From the NCBI RefSeq assembly GCF_010882175.1, contig NZ_WKLH01000003.1:558001-622000 (forward strand): 64,000 bases of DNA, read 5' to 3'. A model generated the notes under the pieces. It did not search any database. It was not told where the DNA came from and saw only the letters and a list, made by a program, of their open reading frames with translations. This document shows positions 35,179 through 43,376 of the stretch, piece by piece. Made by a program: the position numbers and the translations under genes. Position 1 is the stretch's first letter; the number at the start of each line of letters is the position of its first letter. Source of the stretch: Mangrovibacterium lignilyticum (GTDB lineage Bacteria; Bacteroidota; Bacteroidia; Bacteroidales; Prolixibacteraceae).

Positions 35179-36198
35179 ATGAAAACAAAATTGGAGTATA
35201 TCTGGCTCGATGGATACAAGCCAACCCAAAGCTTAAGAGCAAAAACAAGAATAGCAAATAATTTCAGCGGTAAATTGGAAGACTGTCCTGTTTGGTCTTT
35301 TGATGGTTCTTCTACAGAACAAGCTGAAGGTGGAAGCTCTGACTTGTTATTGAAGCCAGTTGCTATTTACCCGGATCCTGCTCGCAAGAATGCTTATTTA
35401 GTAATGACTGAAGTCTTGTTGCCGGACGGAACTCCACACGTATCAAACGGTCGTGCTACAATCACTGAAGAAGACGAAGATTTCTGGTTTGGTTTCGAGC
35501 AAGAATATTTCCTGATGGATGCAGAAACTAACAAACCCCTTGGTTTCCCTGTAAACGGTTATCCAGCTCCACAAGGACCTTACTATTGTGGTGTAGGTGC
35601 TAAATTCATGTTTGGTCGCGAAATCGTTGAAGAACACTTCGACCTTTGCCTGGAAGCAGGTTTGAATGTTGAAGGTATCAACGCTGAGGTAGCAACCGGA
35701 CAGTGGGAATTCCAAATTTTCGCTAAAGGTGCGCACAATGCAGGTGATGAAATCTGGGTTGCTCGCTATTTGTTGGAAAGAACTTGTGAAAAATATGGTG
35801 TTTGGGTAGACTGGCATCCGAAACCACTTGGCAAATTTGCTGACTGGAACGGTTCTGGTATGCACGCAAACTTCTCAAATGGTTTGTTGAGAACTTGTGG
35901 TGACAAAAAAGTATTTGATGCTGTTTGCGAAGAATTCGGAAAACACATCGAAGAGCATATCGCAGTTTACGGAGCTGATAACGATCAACGTTTGACTGGT
36001 CTTCACGAAACTGCATCAATCACTGATTTTAGCTATGGTGTTTCTGACCGTGGATGTTCATTGCGTATCCCTGTTGGAACTGTAGAAGATGGCTGGAAAG
36101 GTCGTATTGAAGACCGTCGTCCTGCTTCAAATGGTGACCCATACAAAATTGCTGCTGTTATCATCAAAACAACGCATAAAGCAATTGCAAAAATGTAA
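35179..36198 (+). CDS. Glutamine synthetase, type II (eukaryote-like, beta-grasp)
   Basis: 339 residues, short as expected for GSII (about 340-370) against 450-470 for GSI. Makes glutamine from glutamate, ammonia and ATP. Signatures: EYIWLDGYKPTQSLRAKTR, WSFDGSSTEQAEGGSSDLLL, FGFEQEYFLMD (metal ligands), EGINAEVATGQWEFQI, WNGSGMHANFS and GVSDRGCSLRIPVGT. GSII is decameric and is not adenylylated. It has a long leader and a strong terminator, so it is monocistronic. Two more GS-fold genes lie within 8 kb. Confidence 0.95.
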   Translation: MKTKLEYIWLDGYKPTQSLRAKTRIANNFSGKLEDCPVWSFDGSSTEQAEGGSSDLLLKPVAIYPDPARKNAYLVMTEVLLPDGTPHVSNGRATITEEDEDFWFGFEQEYFLMDAETNKPLGFPVNGYPAPQGPYYCGVGAKFMFGREIVEEHFDLCLEAGLNVEGINAEVATGQWEFQIFAKGAHNAGDEIWVARYLLERTCEKYGVWVDWHPKPLGKFADWNGSGMHANFSNGLLRTCGDKKVFDAVCEEFGKHIEEHIAVYGADNDQRLTGLHETASITDFSYGVSDRGCSLRIPVGTVEDGWKGRIEDRRPASNGDPYKIAAVIIKTTHKAIAKM

Positions 36199-36311: not shown

Positions 36312-37433
36312 ATGACAAACATAAAATTCCCGGTTAAAAAAGAGCTCTTTCTCGAAACAACACACTCGCCGGCTTTGGTCGATATTGTTGGACCAGAATT
36401 GGTGAACGAAGTTGTTGATTTTTGCTTCATCGCGAATCCCTATTATCCAACTCCTGCGATGATGGACGAATTGTTGGCTAAGATTCCGGAGATTATTAAA
36501 GCATATCCATCGAGTAATCCGCGTTTAGCCCGGGAACAACTTGCAGCAGTATTAAAAATTGATCCGCAACACCTCATTTTAGGTAATGGAGCAACCGAAC
36601 TGATCACATTGATTGAGCAGGAATTGATTGACGATATTGCCATTCCAATTCCGACATTCAGCGAATACCTTGAAAAACTTCGGGATGCCGACTCGGCTCG
36701 TTTGTACCAGTTGCCAGCTGATAGAGACTACCAGCTTAATCTGAGTGATTTTGCCGATTGGATTGACGAACAGTCCATTTCTTCGGCTTTAATTATAAAT
36801 CCGGGGAATCCTACCGGGCAGTTTATTCATTTGGTTGAATTGAAAGCTTTCCTGAAGCGGATGGGCCACTTGAAAGTTATTCTGCTGGATGAGTCTTTCA
36901 TTGACTTTAGCGGTATTGATCAACCTTCGTTAATGCCATTTTTGGATGAATATCCAAATGTAATTGTTGTGCGCAGTATGAGTAAACATTGTGGTGTTCC
37001 CGGTCTTCGACTGGGGTATTGCTGTACGTCGAACAACGAGTTCAATTCCGTTTTAAAAGCGTTGTTGCCTGTGTGGAATATTAACACAATCGCCGAGTAT
37101 TTTCTGTTGATGTTGCCTAAAACCGACCGGGAATATCAGCAGTCAGTAACCCAGGTTGTGAAGGATGTAAGATTGCTTTACTCCAAATTGAAAAAACTTA
37201 ACGGCTATAAGATTTATCCTACCGGAAGTAATTTCATTCTGGTCAGAATTAATTTCGGCATTTCTGCGCTAGAGCTTCAAATGCGCTTGTTGGAAGAATA
37301 TGGACTTTATGTACGTGATTGCTCCAACAAAGAAGGGCTTGATAAGTATCACATTCGTGTGGCATCGCAAAGGGAAGCCAATGACGATCGGTTAGTTCAG
37401 GCATTGCAGGAAATCAGTCAGGATTTCCTGTAA
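36312..37433 (+). CDS. Class I/II PLP enzyme, HisC/CobD-like aminotransferase or decarboxylase
   Basis: 373 residues, fold type I. Signatures: LILGNGATELI (phosphate cup), NPGNPTGQF, ILLDESFIDFSG, the Schiff-base lysine in VRSMSKHCGVPGLRLGY, and a C-terminal HIRVASQREANDDRLVQAL. It is closest in appearance to histidinol-phosphate aminotransferase and to threonine-phosphate decarboxylase CobD. There is no his or cob operon here. Some HisC-like enzymes in Campylobacter capsule loci decarboxylate phosphoserine to ethanolamine phosphate, so a decarboxylase role is plausible. It converges on the HAD-kinase-ligase operon with a 13-bp gap. Substrate unknown. Confidence 0.85.
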   Translation: MTNIKFPVKKELFLETTHSPALVDIVGPELVNEVVDFCFIANPYYPTPAMMDELLAKIPEIIKAYPSSNPRLAREQLAAVLKIDPQHLILGNGATELITLIEQELIDDIAIPIPTFSEYLEKLRDADSARLYQLPADRDYQLNLSDFADWIDEQSISSALIINPGNPTGQFIHLVELKAFLKRMGHLKVILLDESFIDFSGIDQPSLMPFLDEYPNVIVVRSMSKHCGVPGLRLGYCCTSNNEFNSVLKALLPVWNINTIAEYFLLMLPKTDREYQQSVTQVVKDVRLLYSKLKKLNGYKIYPTGSNFILVRINFGISALELQMRLLEEYGLYVRDCSNKEGLDKYHIRVASQREANDDRLVQALQEISQDFL

Positions 37434-37445
37434 TGTCGATTACAG
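37428..37445. terminator. Hairpin in the convergent gap
   Basis: CTGTAAT (37428-37434) and ATTACAG (37439-37445) form a perfect 7-bp stem with a GTCG loop. It includes the stop codon of the PLP enzyme and ends 2 bp before the HAD stop. No T-run; a weak bidirectional terminator at best. Confidence 0.4.
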
Positions 37446-37446
37446 A

Positions 37447-38295
37447 TTAGGGAATAATAGCCGAATCGCAGATGTAGTTTGGAATAATTCCGGAACTTGA
37501 AATGCGCACTTTAGCCATCTCGGGTAAAGTATTCCCGGATAGTACAAGGGCGGTATCCATTCCAAATTTGTTTCCGCCAATGATATCTGTATAAAGGGTA
37601 TCGCCGACCATCAGTATGTCATTTCTTTTCATGGGTTTGACTTCACAAGCTCTTTCGTAGGCAAACATAAACATTTGGGCATCCGGTTTGCCGAACCGGA
37701 TAAATTTTTTCCCTAATACCTCTTCAACCAAATCTGAAATACCACCAATCGCCACGGCAACATCGTTATGGCTAACTGGGTAATGAATATCCGTATTGGC
37801 GACAACTACCGGCATGTTTTTTTTTCGAAGTAGGTTGATCACTTTGTTGATGTCCTGATTCCAATCGAAGCCTTCATCGTCCAGGAATACGAGACATTTG
37901 ACATGGTCGATATCATTCAGGTCGATGTCGCGAATCGGGAGCGTATCTAACCCTGCTGTCTCAATGTAGTGTGCCGAGTCTCCCGTTCCCAAGTATGCTA
38001 CCGTTCCGTTTTTAATTTTAAGGGACAGCCAGTCGTGGGCCAACATCCCGGAAGAAATGATTTTATCCGGAGTAATGCTTTTTATGCCTCTTCGGATATA
38101 ACCATCGGCCAATCCCTCCGGTCCTCTCGAGCTATCGTTGGTAACCACAAAATAGTTGATGCCATGTTCGTCCAAAAAATCAAAAGTCCGTTCAATGCCC
38201 GGTATAATTCCCTTGTGGTTTTTTAAAACACCAAAGGCATCGAAGAAAATTGTTTTGTATTTGAGAGCAACAGTTTTGAAATCTTTCGTTTTCAT
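37447..38295 (-). CDS. HAD class IIA protein with altered DxD motif
   Basis: 282 residues of the NagD-like class IIA HAD superfamily. Motif I reads FFDAFGVL: nucleophile Asp19 is present, but the second Asp (+2), the general acid/base of phosphatases, is Phe21. Motif II is FVVTNDSSRGPEG. The class IIA cap lies between, and motif IV ILMVGDTLYTDIIGGNKFGMD is intact. A missing +2 Asp is seen in some class IIA members and in haloacid dehalogenases, so the reaction may not be simple phosphate hydrolysis. It starts 2 bp after the kinase stop, indicating translational coupling. Last gene of a three-gene operon. Confidence 0.85.
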   Translation of the reverse strand: MKTKDFKTVALKYKTIFFDAFGVLKNHKGIIPGIERTFDFLDEHGINYFVVTNDSSRGPEGLADGYIRRGIKSITPDKIISSGMLAHDWLSLKIKNGTVAYLGTGDSAHYIETAGLDTLPIRDIDLNDIDHVKCLVFLDDEGFDWNQDINKVINLLRKKNMPVVVANTDIHYPVSHNDVAVAIGGISDLVEEVLGKKFIRFGKPDAQMFMFAYERACEVKPMKRNDILMVGDTLYTDIIGGNKFGMDTALVLSGNTLPEMAKVRISSSGIIPNYICDSAIIP

Positions 38296-38297
38296 AA

Positions 38298-39341
38298 TCA
38301 GAGTTTTAATGCACGTAATAGCTTTTCGGCCTGGAAGTTGGTGTCAATTGTGCGGAAGTAGACGTCGTAAGCTTCCTTTTGTAATTTCCGGGCATAAGTT
38401 GGCTGAAAGAAATAGGGCCCGTCTTTAATGACGTAATTCAAAATAAAGAAGCGGTAACATTCCTGAATCAATCTGATTTCGGGTTCTGTTAGCGGATATA
38501 TTTTATGGTATTCTTTTAGAAATAGAATGAAACGTTCTTCCATCAACGGATCGATGACGTAGCTGAAAACGGTCCGGTCTCCGACATCAGAACAGACCCT
38601 GCTAAAGAAGTAAAAATCCATCACCCGGCTCGACATCCGGAACCAGTCGTAATCCCATCTGGAATAGAATTTTCCATCGGCTGTCACTGAAAAATTTCCA
38701 ATGTTCCAATCAACAAAAACCGGAATAATATCAATTTCGGTCATGTAGTTATAGTGATCGGCATTATTAAGGAAAGTATCACACTGGCGTAAAATCAGGT
38801 CCTTTTGTTCTTGCGTCGCACAAAATTTCTGTTCCCGGATAGTCTTCATTAATTGGTGAATGTCGGTCACCACACTTTTAGATGCGATGGGCAACTGGCT
38901 GCTAATATTGTAGCAGGCTTTATGAAAACGAGCCAGTTCGCGTCCCGATTTTTTGACGTGCTTCTCTTCAAGTCGCCGTGGTAGTTTATTCTTGACTTTA
39001 ATGGGATTGTAAAAAACGACCCAGGCCCAATGATCCTGCGAGTAGTAGCGGTAAATGTAAAGATCGTTTCGTTTGACCAATGATTGCGCCAGGAAGGTTT
39101 CGTAGGGGATTTCCAGGTTGTTGGCCAGGTTGTTTATAATGATATGATCTTCTTTGAAATGTTCAAATTTCCCGTAGTCCGATAGTTTGGCGAAAACCGG
39201 TTGTCGGTTGTAAAATGAAATTTTATAAACTGAGTTCGTCGAAACATGAGCACTTACATCAAAAATACCTTTGATTTCATGTCTGTCGTCAAACTCCTTC
39301 CAGGCTTGCCTGATGATATGATAATTATCTAATTTTTCCAT
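38298..39341 (-). CDS. APH/choline-kinase-like phosphotransferase
   Basis: About 347 residues from the ATG at 39341. The frame runs back to 39449 and overlaps the upstream gene by 59 bp, but those residues do not look conserved. Protein-kinase-like fold of the aminoglycoside/choline kinase type: VYKISFYNRQPVFAKLSDYG supplies the ATP-binding lysine region, FVDWNIGNFSV is the catalytic loop (Asp and Asn in the usual HxDxxxxN spacing, with His replaced by Phe), and RWDYDWFRMSSRVMDFYFF is the Mg-binding DxD region. It would phosphorylate a hydroxyl on a small molecule. It lies between the GS-like ligase and the HAD protein. Substrate unknown. Confidence 0.82.
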   Translation of the reverse strand: MEKLDNYHIIRQAWKEFDDRHEIKGIFDVSAHVSTNSVYKISFYNRQPVFAKLSDYGKFEHFKEDHIIINNLANNLEIPYETFLAQSLVKRNDLYIYRYYSQDHWAWVVFYNPIKVKNKLPRRLEEKHVKKSGRELARFHKACYNISSQLPIASKSVVTDIHQLMKTIREQKFCATQEQKDLILRQCDTFLNNADHYNYMTEIDIIPVFVDWNIGNFSVTADGKFYSRWDYDWFRMSSRVMDFYFFSRVCSDVGDRTVFSYVIDPLMEERFILFLKEYHKIYPLTEPEIRLIQECYRFFILNYVIKDGPYFFQPTYARKLQKEAYDVYFRTIDTNFQAEKLLRALKL

Positions 39342-39390
39342 TTTGGTTGTAATAATCTTGCCTTTCGTGAAAAGCTTTTTCCATTTTTTT

Positions 39391-40743
39391 TTAAATGATC
39401 TCGAAATAGCGCTTGAGCTCCCAATCGGTAACCGCTTTCGCAAATTCACGGCATTCCCATTCTCTGGTTTTAGTGAAATGATTGGTGAAAGCTTCTCCTA
39501 AAATTTCGTTCGCTAACGTCGATTGTGCCATTTGTTTCGTGGCTTCCATGAGGTTCGAAGGGAGCTTGACTGCATCTTGTTTGGCGTATGCATTACCAAC
39601 AATGGCCGGGCTTTCCAGCTTCAACCCTTTTTTTATACCGTATAAACCTGAAGCCAGCGAAGCAGCCATGGCCAGATACGGATTCATGTCCGATCCGGGC
39701 ACACGCATCTCAAGGCGTGTTGATTTTTCGTCTCCATTCAGTACCCGAACGGCAGTTGTCCGGTTGTCGTAACCCCAGGTCACTGTCGTGGGTGCCCATG
39801 CTCCGTCGCGGAGTCGCTTAAAACTGTTAATTGTCGGCGCGTACATTGGCAATACTTCAGGCAAACAATATAGCTGTCCGGCCAGATAGCTTTCCATAAG
39901 GGGACTCATCGGTTTCGTGGGATTTCCTGAATAAAAAAGGTTTTTACTTTGGTCAGCATTCCATATGCTTTGATGAATGTGGCCGCTGCAACCGGGAAGG
40001 TCTTCGTTCCATTTGGCCATAAATGTGGACACAATGCCGTGACGGTAAGCAATTTCTTTGACCGCCGTTTTAAATAAAGTCGCTTTGTCGGCGGCTTTCA
40101 AAATTTCATCGTACCGAATGGCCGATTCGTAAACTCCCGGCCCGGTTTCGGTGTGTAATGATTCCAACGGAATATCGAACTGAAACAGTAAATCAAACAG
40201 TTCGTTGAAAAATTCTTTGTAAAGTGAAGGCCGAAGTTGCGAGTAGCCAAACATCCCCGGCGTTAAAGACTGCAATTTCTGAAAAGAAGAAGCGGCCAGT
40301 TCGTTTGGGGTTCCCAGAAAATTGAACCATTCAAATTCCTGAGCAAAAATTGCTTTATATCCCAGGTCTGTTGCCTGTCGCCGAATTTGCTTCAATAAGG
40401 TTCTTGGACAGGCCGAATTATTTTCGTCGTTTTCAAAATCTCCCAGAAAATATGGAATGTTATTATCCCAAGGGACATTCCGAAAGGTATTGAGGTCGAT
40501 ATTTGCTTTTTTATCGGGGTAGCCGGTATGCCAGCCGGTAATCTCTACATTGTCGTAGCATCTGTCGCTTGAATCCCATCCAAAAACGACATCGCAAAAG
40601 CCGGCCTGCTTCTCCGTGATTTCGATAAATTTGTCCAGAAGCAAGGTTTTCGATCGCAAGATTCCGTCAATGTCACAGATCGCAAATTTGATCTTTTTGT
40701 GTCCCGCCTCTTCCAATTTTTTCACTATCTCGAGTATTCCCAT
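39391..40743 (-). CDS. Glutamine-synthetase-fold ligase (GSI/PuuA-like)
   Basis: 450 residues. N-terminal beta-grasp with KFAICDIDGILRSKTLLLD, like the DxxGxxRGK start of gamma-glutamyl-polyamine or -ethanolamide synthetases rather than GlnA. The catalytic core is complete: AQEFEWFNF (metal ExE), TETGPGVYESAIRYDE, GCSGHIHQSIW, NRTTAVRVL, and RLEMRVPGSDMNPYLAMAAS. It should therefore activate glutamate (or a related acid) with ATP and couple it to an amine. It is the first gene of an operon with the kinase (49-bp gap) and the HAD protein. This arrangement suggests a dedicated pathway, not ammonia assimilation. Confidence 0.85.
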   Translation of the reverse strand: MGILEIVKKLEEAGHKKIKFAICDIDGILRSKTLLLDKFIEITEKQAGFCDVVFGWDSSDRCYDNVEITGWHTGYPDKKANIDLNTFRNVPWDNNIPYFLGDFENDENNSACPRTLLKQIRRQATDLGYKAIFAQEFEWFNFLGTPNELAASSFQKLQSLTPGMFGYSQLRPSLYKEFFNELFDLLFQFDIPLESLHTETGPGVYESAIRYDEILKAADKATLFKTAVKEIAYRHGIVSTFMAKWNEDLPGCSGHIHQSIWNADQSKNLFYSGNPTKPMSPLMESYLAGQLYCLPEVLPMYAPTINSFKRLRDGAWAPTTVTWGYDNRTTAVRVLNGDEKSTRLEMRVPGSDMNPYLAMAASLASGLYGIKKGLKLESPAIVGNAYAKQDAVKLPSNLMEATKQMAQSTLANEILGEAFTNHFTKTREWECREFAKAVTDWELKRYFEII

Positions 40744-41186: not shown

Positions 41187-43376
41187 ATGGCTGTATTTAG
41201 ATTCAAAGCTCTGGACGAAGTTCTAGCGCGCCAACCGCTGCAGATTACTCGTGAGCACAACCTTACCTCGGATTATTTTGGCTACAAGGTCTTCGACCGG
41301 CCTAAAATGAAAAAGTATTTATCGAAAGAAGCTTATAAAGCAGTTTGCGATGCAGTAGATAATAGTGCTCCGATTGATCGGAAAATGGCCGATCAGGTGG
41401 CTCAGGGAATGAAAGCCTGGGCAACCGAAAACGGAGCAACACATTATACACATTGGTTTCATCCATTAACCGACGGAACAGCAGAAAAGCACGATGCTTT
41501 CATTGTGAATGTTGAAGATGGCGGAGTTGTCGAATCTTTCTCCGGAAAATTATTGGCTCAACAGGAACCGGATGCATCTTCGTTTCCAAGTGGTGGAATC
41601 CGTCAGACGTTCGAAGCACGCGGTTACACAGCATGGGATGCTTCGTCTCCTGCTTTTATTGTTGACGGAACATTGTGTATTCCTACCGTTTTTATTTCAT
41701 ACACCGGCGAAGCGCTGGACTATAAAACTCCTTTCCTTCGGGCATTGAATGCTGTTGACAAAGCGGCAACCGAAGTTTGTTTGTACTTTGATAAGACAGT
41801 TACTAAAGTTCAGGCGAATTTAGGATGGGAGCAGGAATATTTTTTAATTGACGAGGCACTTTATATGGCCCGGCCAGACTTGGTTTTGACCGGTCGGACA
41901 CTCATGGGACATGCTTCTTCGAAAGACCAGCAACTGGATGACCATTATTTCAGTTCTATTCCAACCCGGGTTTACCGGTTTATGGAAGACCTGGAAAATG
42001 AAGCTTACAAATTGGGCATTCCGGTGAAGACCCGTCACAACGAGGTTGCACCAAACCAGTTCGAAGTAGCTCCTATTTTTGAGGAAGCTAATCTGGCGAA
42101 TGATCACAACCAACTATTAATGGACATCATGAAGAAAATTGCCCGTCGGCATAAATTCATGGTTCTTTTCCACGAAAAGCCGTTTGCCGGGGTGAATGGT
42201 TCCGGAAAACACAATAACTGGTCGTTGATAACAGACAACGGTGTCAATCTTTATTCACCGGGAAAAAATCCGAAATCGAATCTGCAGTTCCTCACCTTTG
42301 TGGTGAATACACTAAAAGCTGTTTACGATAACCAGGATTTGCTGCGAGCCAGTATTCTAACAGCCGGGAATGCCCATCGTTTGGGCGCCAATGAAGCGCC
42401 GCCTTCAATTTTGTCGGTATTTTTGGGATCTGAGGTTAGTAAAATGCTCGATTTGATGGAGACCGCAGTAGTGGAGCGTAAAATGACACCGGACGAAAAA
42501 ACAGCTTTGAAGTTGAATATCGGACGAATTCCGGAAATCATTTTAGATACAACGGACAGGAATCGGACCTCACCTTTTGCCTTTACCGGTAACCGGTTCG
42601 AATACCGTGCTGTTGGCTCATCGGCTAACTGCGCTGCTTCAATGATTGCTTTGAACACTGCCATGGCAGCTCAGCTAACTAAATTTAAAAATGAGGTTGA
42701 CGGTCTGATTGAAAAAGGGGTGAAAAAGGATGAAGCTATTTTCCAGGTCATGAAACGGCTGATCATTGAAACCAAACCAATTCGTTTTGATGGCAATGGG
42801 TACAGCGAAGAGTGGGTTGAGGAAGCGGCCAGACGAGGACTGACCAACGTTAGCAGCGTACCTGAAGCGATCTCAGCATTTACCCGAAAAGAGTTTGTTG
42901 ATTTGTTCTCGTCGGTGAAAGTGTTGAATCAAAGTGAACTGGAAGGACGAGCTGAAGTGGAGTACGAAAAATACACCATGAAAGTACAAATCGAAGCGCG
43001 TGTACTGGGTGATTTGGCCATTAATCACATTGTTCCTACTGCAGTACAATACCAAACCACTCTGCTTACGAATGTGAAATATTTGAAAGATGTGTTCCCT
43101 GCAGATGAATTCGAAAAACTGGCAGAAGGACGTCTTGGTTTGATTCGCGAAGTAGGTACGCATATTTCGACCATCAAGGTGAAGGTGAAGGAAATGGTTG
43201 AAGCTCGCAAGGTGGCAAATGTAATTGAAAATGCTGCCGAGAAAGCGAAAGCGTACGAAACGACAGTTTTTCCCTATCTCGATGAGATCCGTTATCACAT
43301 TGATAAGTTGGAGCTGACCGTTGATAATGAACTTTGGCCTTTGCCGAAATACCGCGAATTATTATTTGTGAAATAA
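41187..43376 (+). CDS. glnN: Glutamine synthetase, type III
   Basis: 729 residues, the expected large GSIII form found in Bacteroidota and cyanobacteria. It begins with RFKALDEVLARQ and contains the GSIII-specific segments THYTHWFHPLTDGTAEKHDAF, FPSGGIRQTFEARGYTAWD, GWEQEYFLIDEALYMARPDL, VKTRHNEVAPNQFEVAPIFE, NGSGKHNNWSL and NRTSPFAFTGNRFEYRAVGS. Assimilates ammonia into glutamine as a dodecamer. It is the third GS-fold gene of this stretch and probably the main biosynthetic enzyme under nitrogen limitation (inference). Confidence 0.97.
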   Translation: MAVFRFKALDEVLARQPLQITREHNLTSDYFGYKVFDRPKMKKYLSKEAYKAVCDAVDNSAPIDRKMADQVAQGMKAWATENGATHYTHWFHPLTDGTAEKHDAFIVNVEDGGVVESFSGKLLAQQEPDASSFPSGGIRQTFEARGYTAWDASSPAFIVDGTLCIPTVFISYTGEALDYKTPFLRALNAVDKAATEVCLYFDKTVTKVQANLGWEQEYFLIDEALYMARPDLVLTGRTLMGHASSKDQQLDDHYFSSIPTRVYRFMEDLENEAYKLGIPVKTRHNEVAPNQFEVAPIFEEANLANDHNQLLMDIMKKIARRHKFMVLFHEKPFAGVNGSGKHNNWSLITDNGVNLYSPGKNPKSNLQFLTFVVNTLKAVYDNQDLLRASILTAGNAHRLGANEAPPSILSVFLGSEVSKMLDLMETAVVERKMTPDEKTALKLNIGRIPEIILDTTDRNRTSPFAFTGNRFEYRAVGSSANCAASMIALNTAMAAQLTKFKNEVDGLIEKGVKKDEAIFQVMKRLIIETKPIRFDGNGYSEEWVEEAARRGLTNVSSVPEAISAFTRKEFVDLFSSVKVLNQSELEGRAEVEYEKYTMKVQIEARVLGDLAINHIVPTAVQYQTTLLTNVKYLKDVFPADEFEKLAEGRLGLIREVGTHISTIKVKVKEMVEARKVANVIENAAEKAKAYETTVFPYLDEIRYHIDKLELTVDNELWPLPKYRELLFVK

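Follow-up and report, generated by a model that had tools for sequence, protein, structure and literature searches.

Gamma-glutamylation of ethanolamine is already known. For the GlnA4 pathway of Streptomyces coelicolor, the accessible part of the report proposes dehydrogenase, aldehyde dehydrogenase and amidohydrolase steps (PMC6529630), and in the accessible part of a second report amine gamma-glutamylation by enzymes of the glutamine synthetase (GS) fold is also the chemistry of PuuA, GlnA2 and GlnA3 (PMC8998196). In Campylobacter jejuni, according to the accessible part of a third report, Cj1436 converts serine phosphate into ethanolamine phosphate, which Cj1438C uses to amidate glucuronate before Cj1435 dephosphorylates the product (PMC12409886). 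Here we describe a locus of Mangrovibacterium lignilyticum that encodes a glutamine-synthetase-like ligase (GSL), a kinase (KIN), a phosphatase-like HAD protein (HAD) and a pyridoxal phosphate enzyme (PLP). It lies at positions 36,312 to 40,743 of a 64,000-nucleotide stretch (contig NZ_WKLH01000003.1, positions 558,001 to 622,000; hereafter the window), and an earlier note, made from the letters of the window, had put it forward as the best candidate there for an undescribed system.

Like GlnA4, GSL has Glu327 replaced by an aromatic residue, and close relatives of GSL occur in an ethanolamine context; where the available text on GlnA4 proposes two dehydrogenases and an amidohydrolase, the cassette encodes a kinase and a HAD protein in their place (PMC6529630). 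With PuuA, GlnA2 and GlnA3, in so far as they are described in the part consulted, it has in common a GS-fold ligase predicted to act on amines, and PuuD-like hydrolases occur in related operons (PMC8998196). The C. jejuni capsule genes Cj1435, Cj1436 and Cj1438 follow, by description, the same decarboxylase, amide ligase and phosphatase logic for ethanolamine; the acceptor there is polysaccharide glucuronate, and the accessible part of the report mentions no GS-like ligase or kinase for this step (PMC12409886). In the open-licence literature, with subscription papers mostly outside the search and with queries directed mainly at parts of the combination, we found no description of the KIN-HAD pair or of the cassette. 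Our findings indicate that KIN and HAD are the constant unit of the cassette and that GSL is unlikely to be an ordinary glutamine synthetase. Tentatively, and with less than even confidence, we read the cassette as a Bacteroidota pathway that would process ethanolamine, or an amino alcohol close to it, by way of gamma-glutamyl and phosphorylated intermediates.

Organisation and conservation of the cassette

Three genes are arranged head to tail on the minus strand in the order GSL (39391-40743), KIN (38298-39341) and HAD (37447-38295), with gaps of 49 bp between GSL and KIN and of 2 bp between KIN and HAD. The PLP gene (36312-37433, plus strand) converges on HAD, the two 3′ ends being 13 bp apart. 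The four open reading frames, the 2-bp spacing, the converging gene and the two flanking glutamine synthetases were all found where the earlier note had placed them. The ATG at 39341 is most likely the start of KIN, because the listed GTG at 39449 would make it run into GSL and because homologues begin near the ATG. A promoter scan gave nothing better than shuffled sequences.

Conservation of the neighbourhood beyond a single genome had been set beforehand as a test of the proposal. When named bacterial and archaeal genomes were scanned with an alignment of KIN, 528 matches were confirmed, and the best 80 of these were retained as named loci (L numbers); as a consequence, close relatives are over-represented among them. 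Within these 80, HAD directly follows KIN in 79, the lone miss being a contig end, and the median KIN-HAD gap is 53 bp as measured by tblastn ends. GSL is present in 70 loci (>45% identity); in 68 loci it is encoded on the same strand, at most 1.5 kb upstream. The 31% identical 'GSL' of L041 is an ordinary GlnA, which was retained in alignment A4 and excluded from alignment A5 and from the count of 70. The loci span Prolixibacteraceae, Mucilaginibacter, Dyadobacter, Fibrisoma, Sporocytophaga and others, together with Desulfopila (L041) and a metagenome-assembled genome of Desulfobulbaceae (L042). The neighbourhood is therefore conserved across Bacteroidota, and chance adjacency is a poor account of GSL, KIN and HAD, given the 79/80 and 68/80 linkage counts.

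Co-occurrence was counted in a phylum sample of 296 Bacteroidota genomes and in a sample of 41 relatives, which have only the host genome in common and together comprise 336 genomes (G numbers). KIN was present in 36 of the 296 genomes and HAD orthologues (E 1e-50, a cut-off at which weaker homologues escape counting) in the identical 36 and nowhere else; among the relatives, KIN and HAD (E 1e-40, with the same restriction) occurred in the identical 10 genomes. In the union, HAD accompanies KIN in 45/45 genomes and is found in 0/291 of the remaining ones. A KIN match of 49 residues in G260 (E 2.4e-4) was excluded, and the HAD of G002 is truncated by the contig end. These counts, like the Fisher values given below, ignore phylogeny, and the p values are too small for that reason. 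KIN and HAD lie on separate contigs in G026, G028 and G016, yet both are present, so the possibility that the pair is a by-product of synteny with GSL was rejected. GSL itself, scored at E 1e-100, was found in 34/296 and 9/41 genomes; its carriers comprise 37 of the 45 genomes with KIN and five without it, and matches of 340-350 bits in G219 and G255 were excluded as paralogues. As judged by gene content, the constant unit is KIN-HAD, and GSL and PLP are partners missing from some lineages. Of the four-family co-occurrence that the earlier note had suggested looking for, the KIN-HAD association (45/45) and to a large extent that of GSL (37/45) stood, but PLP orthologues turned out to be rare.

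These counts also bear on two other explanations. One holds that KIN-HAD is a separate unit tied to nitrogen assimilation, acting in metabolite repair or phosphorylating some metabolite or protein reversibly, with GSL only co-regulated. The absence of GSL from eight genomes in which KIN and HAD stay together (45/45) speaks for it, as do pairs that adjoin a GSII glutamine synthetase without GSL (GSII-KIN-HAD in G243, G211 and G159; KIN-HAD-GSII in Desulfopila L041). Against it, the GSL-KIN-HAD order is retained in the divergent G218 at 46-51% identity and also on the Desulfobulbaceae contig L042, and GGACT and C26 genes, described below, point to gamma-glutamyl chemistry; we regard it as rather unlikely. 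The other explanation, that the genes are coincidental neighbours with no common pathway, could appeal to the opposite strand of PLP and to a congener (G003) without a PLP orthologue, and is made very improbable by the co-occurrence and linkage counts and by a recurring operon of PLP, C26 hydrolase and HAD.

Two observations concern the distribution of KIN. The KIN proteins of L041 and L042 are 68% and 64% identical to Bacteroidota forms, one of them beside an 80% identical GSII; since both loci carry a KIN-HAD pair so close to the Bacteroidota forms, their sequences suggest transfer between phyla. In L125 and L126, from two genomes of the same order, KIN is separated from HAD; by eye, its neighbours resemble siroheme/sulfate genes in one and FolD in the other.

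A glutamine synthetase-like ligase with tryptophan at the Glu327 position

GSL matches the Pfam model Gln-synt_C (E 1.2e-91), and the residues for glutamate, ATP and metal (E129, E131, E212, E220, H269, R321, R339 and R359) are invariant in 21 cassette GSLs, which agrees with a catalytically complete ligase, as had been claimed. The numbers of this set, and that of Glu327, derived from the Glu of the PGYEAP motif, follow what we take to be the GS residue numbering, mapped via the alignment. GSL scores below the cut-offs of both the GlnA model TIGR00653 (205.8 bits, cut-off 429.15) and the gamma-glutamylputrescine synthetase model NF045547 (174.1 bits, cut-off 650). The Glu327 position is Trp in 70/70 cassette GSLs (W316 in the window copy), and the lone ordinary GlnA of the set, from L041, retains Glu; this GlnA also stands apart from GSL in a maximum-likelihood tree. 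An ordinary glutamine synthetase is hence an unlikely identity for GSL, and we rejected it on the Glu327 position, the score and the tree. Grouping of the ligase with GlnA would have told against the earlier note, and the sequences do not group in this way. In the available part of the GlnA4 report, the same position is occupied by Phe331 in GlnA4 and by Trp296 in PauA7 (PMC6529630).

Ethanolamine permease genes beside close relatives of GSL

In the five GSL genomes without KIN (G073, G131, G190, G202 and G017), GSL lies directly 3′ of an ethanolamine permease gene. The same holds for G166, whose KIN-HAD pair lies on a separate contig from GSL, and all six permeases score over the TIGR00908 cut-off. 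The six permease-linked GSLs, relatives at 56-61% identity, have this setting in an ethanolamine utilisation operon, and the window copy itself does not. Five of the six permease loci continue with genes like those for an iron alcohol dehydrogenase, a PuuD-like hydrolase and an aldehyde dehydrogenase. Each of these families was checked against the family library in L136, and the hydrolase in L138 as well; the remainder were assigned by order, appearance and hydrolase BLAST. In L133 a single frame of 699 residues starts with the hydrolase, and at the sixth locus (L163; G017) the contig ends after GSL. The permease-GSL operons at L133, L134, L135, L136, L138 and L163 resemble the GlnA4-type ethanolamine pathway.

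The permease-linked GSLs cluster as a single group (93/97) in the maximum-likelihood tree, next to the cassette GSLs or nested within them; two of the outgroup paralogues are likewise in permease loci. At the criterion used, no alignment position divides the 21 cassette GSLs from the permease-linked ones, of which there are only six. Because the two sets are indistinguishable in this sense, our best guess for the substrate of GSL is ethanolamine or an amino alcohol close to it. The earlier note had guessed at phosphorylation, decarboxylation or gamma-glutamylation of an amino alcohol or amine; the permeases beside close GSL relatives give the amino alcohol independent support, and the order of the reactions remains something we infer.

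The same likeness weighs on a different order of steps, one that resembles C. jejuni, in which PLP or KIN would make phosphoethanolamine, GSL would join it to glutamate and HAD would dephosphorylate the resulting amide, the phosphate being a temporary handle. This order has a precedent in Cj1436, Cj1438C and Cj1435, as the accessible part of that report describes them (PMC12409886), avoids a futile cycle of KIN and HAD, and accounts for two entry enzymes. It is harder to reconcile with a cassette GSL that cannot be told from the permease-linked GSL, whose amine should arrive unphosphorylated; besides, the acceptor here would be glutamate and not glucuronate, and the likeness to the Cj proteins is by the description in the paper, not by sequence. 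We consider this order unlikely, though it is one of the chief competitors of the pathway that we favour.

Ethanolamine permeases over the cut-off were found in 7 of the 36 KIN-positive and 6 of the 260 KIN-negative genomes (Fisher p 2e-4, phylogeny ignored). Of those seven, three adjoin EutBC, two adjoin a distant GSL paralogue and one belongs to the permease-GSL operon of G166, and that of G230 is beside none of these. The permease led nowhere as a marker of cassette genomes. In L148 and L149, whose genomes are KIN-positive and have no cassette GSL, a distant GSL paralogue (35-37% identity) is accompanied by SDR-like, ALDH-like and amidotransferase-like genes and an ethanolamine permease.

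Predicted properties of KIN and HAD

The KIN of the window gave no Pfam match over cut-off (14.7 bits to an unrelated model, which is chance level) and no NCBIfam match. The Pfam APH model matches 2 of 32 members, with a best E of 0.0089, and not the window protein, and neither sequence nor profile search returned a credible match for KIN in the PDB. A structural model built from 32 sequences has a mean pLDDT of 89.2 and an APH-fold. Its fold matches were AmiN 6sum (Z 21.0, root-mean-square deviation (rmsd) 3.6 over 304 residues), the N-acetylhexosamine kinase 4ocj (Z 20.7, rmsd 4.2, 324 residues), the aminopropanol kinase 6ef6 (Z 20.4, rmsd 3.8, 293 residues), the homoserine kinase 2ppq (Z 19.6, rmsd 4.2, 295 residues), the choline kinase 3c5i (Z 18.6, rmsd 3.9, 297 residues) and LicA 4r78 (Z 18.1, rmsd 3.6, 279 residues). 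APH-fold kinases carry a catalytic Asp-x4-Asn and a metal-binding Asp, and the motifs DWNxGN and SRWDYDW are present in the KIN of 80/80 named loci. KIN is thus like 6ef6 and other APH-fold kinases in its predicted fold and catalytic motifs, the identity to 6ef6 being 12% over the aligned residues. Both lines agree with the claim of a kinase with its catalytic Asp and Asn in place, and on the model KIN is predicted to be an APH-fold small-molecule kinase; as the leading fold matches are tied, the fold indicates nothing narrower and does not single out a substrate, and a kinase family missing from the list of matches carries no weight.

HAD scores above the cut-off of the HAD-IIA model TIGR01460 (126.3 bits, cut-off 100.15), and the structure of a close homologue that bears the name predicted sugar phosphatase has been solved (2hx1, E 8.9e-108). 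The nucleophile Asp is present in 77 of the 77 HADs, and motifs II to IV, as searched, are all present in 76. In HAD phosphatases the Asp two residues after the nucleophile serves as general acid/base. Here that residue is Phe in 71/77 and Tyr in 6/77 and never the usual second Asp; it is also Phe in 2hx1, and the window protein reads D19-A-F21 where D-x-D is expected. The HAD identity proposed in the earlier note thus holds at the level of the HAD-IIA family, but by sequence the protein is not an ordinary phosphatase. Because the Asp at the general acid/base position is replaced, its substrate may be other than an ordinary alkyl phosphate.

On this basis one may imagine a new type of phospho-gamma-glutamyl pathway in which gamma-glutamylethanolamide would be phosphorylated, the HAD lacking a general acid would handle an unusual phosphate, and the amine nitrogen would be returned directly as glutamine. 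HAD might then act on a P-N phosphate or an acyl phosphate, or eliminate phosphate to leave glutamine and acetaldehyde. We regard such a pathway as improbable.

The PLP enzyme, a second operon and neighbouring genes

PLP is a fold-type-I enzyme whose best models are those of CobD (TIGR01140, 191.1 bits, cut-off 290.55) and HisC (TIGR01141, 174.6 bits, cut-off 276.55), which supports the HisC/CobD likeness pointed out in the earlier note, but it falls under both cut-offs. The cut-off of CobD is a weak test, because the better CobD candidate of the host genome, which is likely the housekeeping CobD, also falls just short (284.4 bits). A HisC over its cut-off (347.5 bits) is also encoded elsewhere in the genome, and the neighbours of these two genes resemble, by eye, cobalamin/siroheme and his genes. 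With a better candidate for each elsewhere, we rejected a role of PLP as the CobD or HisC of this genome. Its best solved relative is 6oux, threonine phosphate decarboxylase-like by name (189 bits, against 125 for the next), with which it has an N-terminal HSP motif in common. We take 6oux to be the norcobamide-linked enzyme of Sulfurospirillum.

PLP orthologues occur in 15 of the 80 named loci (>45% identity). A second gene arrangement, elsewhere in the order, carries them too: GSII, PLP, a C26 hydrolase and HAD form an operon in G028, G534 and G615, outside the own family, and G449 has PLP-C26-HAD with a converging GSII, so that PLP-C26 hydrolase-HAD is found in four genomes outside the own family with GSII adjoining each. 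In G440, PLP-C26 has no HAD within the 12.5 kb examined, and G026 has C26-HAD without PLP. Family-library checks covered the C26 genes of G028 and G026, the remainder being assigned by 52-57% identity to the G028 copy. Since PLP recurs in this second form, we rejected the idea that it is a chance convergent neighbour.

A breakdown of the amine for nitrogen would also employ this enzyme: KIN would phosphorylate ethanolamine and PLP, acting as a phospho-lyase, would free ammonia for GSII and GSIII. The resemblance of the KIN fold to the microcompartment aminopropanol kinase 6ef6 and the flanking glutamine synthetases are consistent with such a route. It is nevertheless hard to credit, given that no PLP orthologue of at least 580 bits was found in 35 of the 36 phylum-sample genomes with KIN and that no aldehyde-handling gene was recognised, by eye only, in the cassette loci read.

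The flanks of the module in the window are a GSII glutamine synthetase (35179-36198, plus strand), of a type that adjoins the module in several lineages, and a GSIII glutamine synthetase (41187-43376, plus strand), which is divergent from GSL and is also found in 24 of the 30 loci L015-L044. With GSL they make up three of the four Gln-synt_C genes of the host genome, the distant fourth being on another contig. A gene of the GGACT cluster (gamma-glutamyl cyclotransferase, an assignment based on one cluster member checked against Pfam), such as that at L087:8022-8435, is found in 34 of the 80 named loci, all within L045-L094; in 34/34 it lies 10-530 bp from GSL, and in 33 it is divergent.

Discussion

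In the pathway that we tentatively favour, we infer all substrates and the step order. GSL would couple glutamate to the amine at the expense of ATP, yielding a product of the gamma-glutamyl-ethanolamide type. The free hydroxyl would then probably be oxidised in the permease-linked relatives, and in the cassette KIN would probably phosphorylate it instead, with HAD acting on the phosphorylated product. Where PLP is present, it would probably convert phosphoserine to phosphoethanolamine as a second entry. Glutamate would be recovered by a gamma-glutamyl-cleaving enzyme of the GGACT or C26 type, which some lineages encode next to the module.

Several observations weigh against this pathway. On the side of the ligase, the accessible part of the report on GlnA2, a gamma-glutamylpolyamine synthetase, gives Glu at position 327, with Thr in GlnA3 where GSL has Trp (PMC8998196), so that this position is not a strict discriminator. 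The ammonium site is also largely kept, with Tyr179 in 21/21 and Asp50 in 17/21 cassette GSLs (mapping by alignment), whereas Tyr179 is replaced in both GlnA4 and PauA7 in the available account of these enzymes (PMC6529630). Eight of the 45 KIN-HAD genomes are without GSL at E 1e-100, and the pair may therefore have a GSL-independent substrate or a wider role. The fold neighbours of KIN tie across sugar, antibiotic and amino-alcohol kinases, HAD is devoid of the usual acid/base Asp, and PLP orthologues of at least 580 bits are found in only 1/296 genomes of the phylum sample, 6/334 of the order sample used in the PLP search and 4/41 relatives. As regards ethanolamine, the host genome has no match to an ethanolamine permease, and three KIN-positive genomes (G139, G254 and G289) have EutB and EutC beside the permease, so these three probably break ethanolamine down by a route other than the cassette.

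Taken together, a kinase without a family match coincides exactly, in the sampled genomes, with a HAD protein whose homologue 2hx1 is only a predicted sugar phosphatase, and the tie of both to a ligase of the GlnA4/PauA7 kind provides concrete candidate substrates. Following this lead could reveal the way in which many Bacteroidota process ethanolamine or related amino alcohols, and would prevent such ligases from being annotated as glutamine synthetases.

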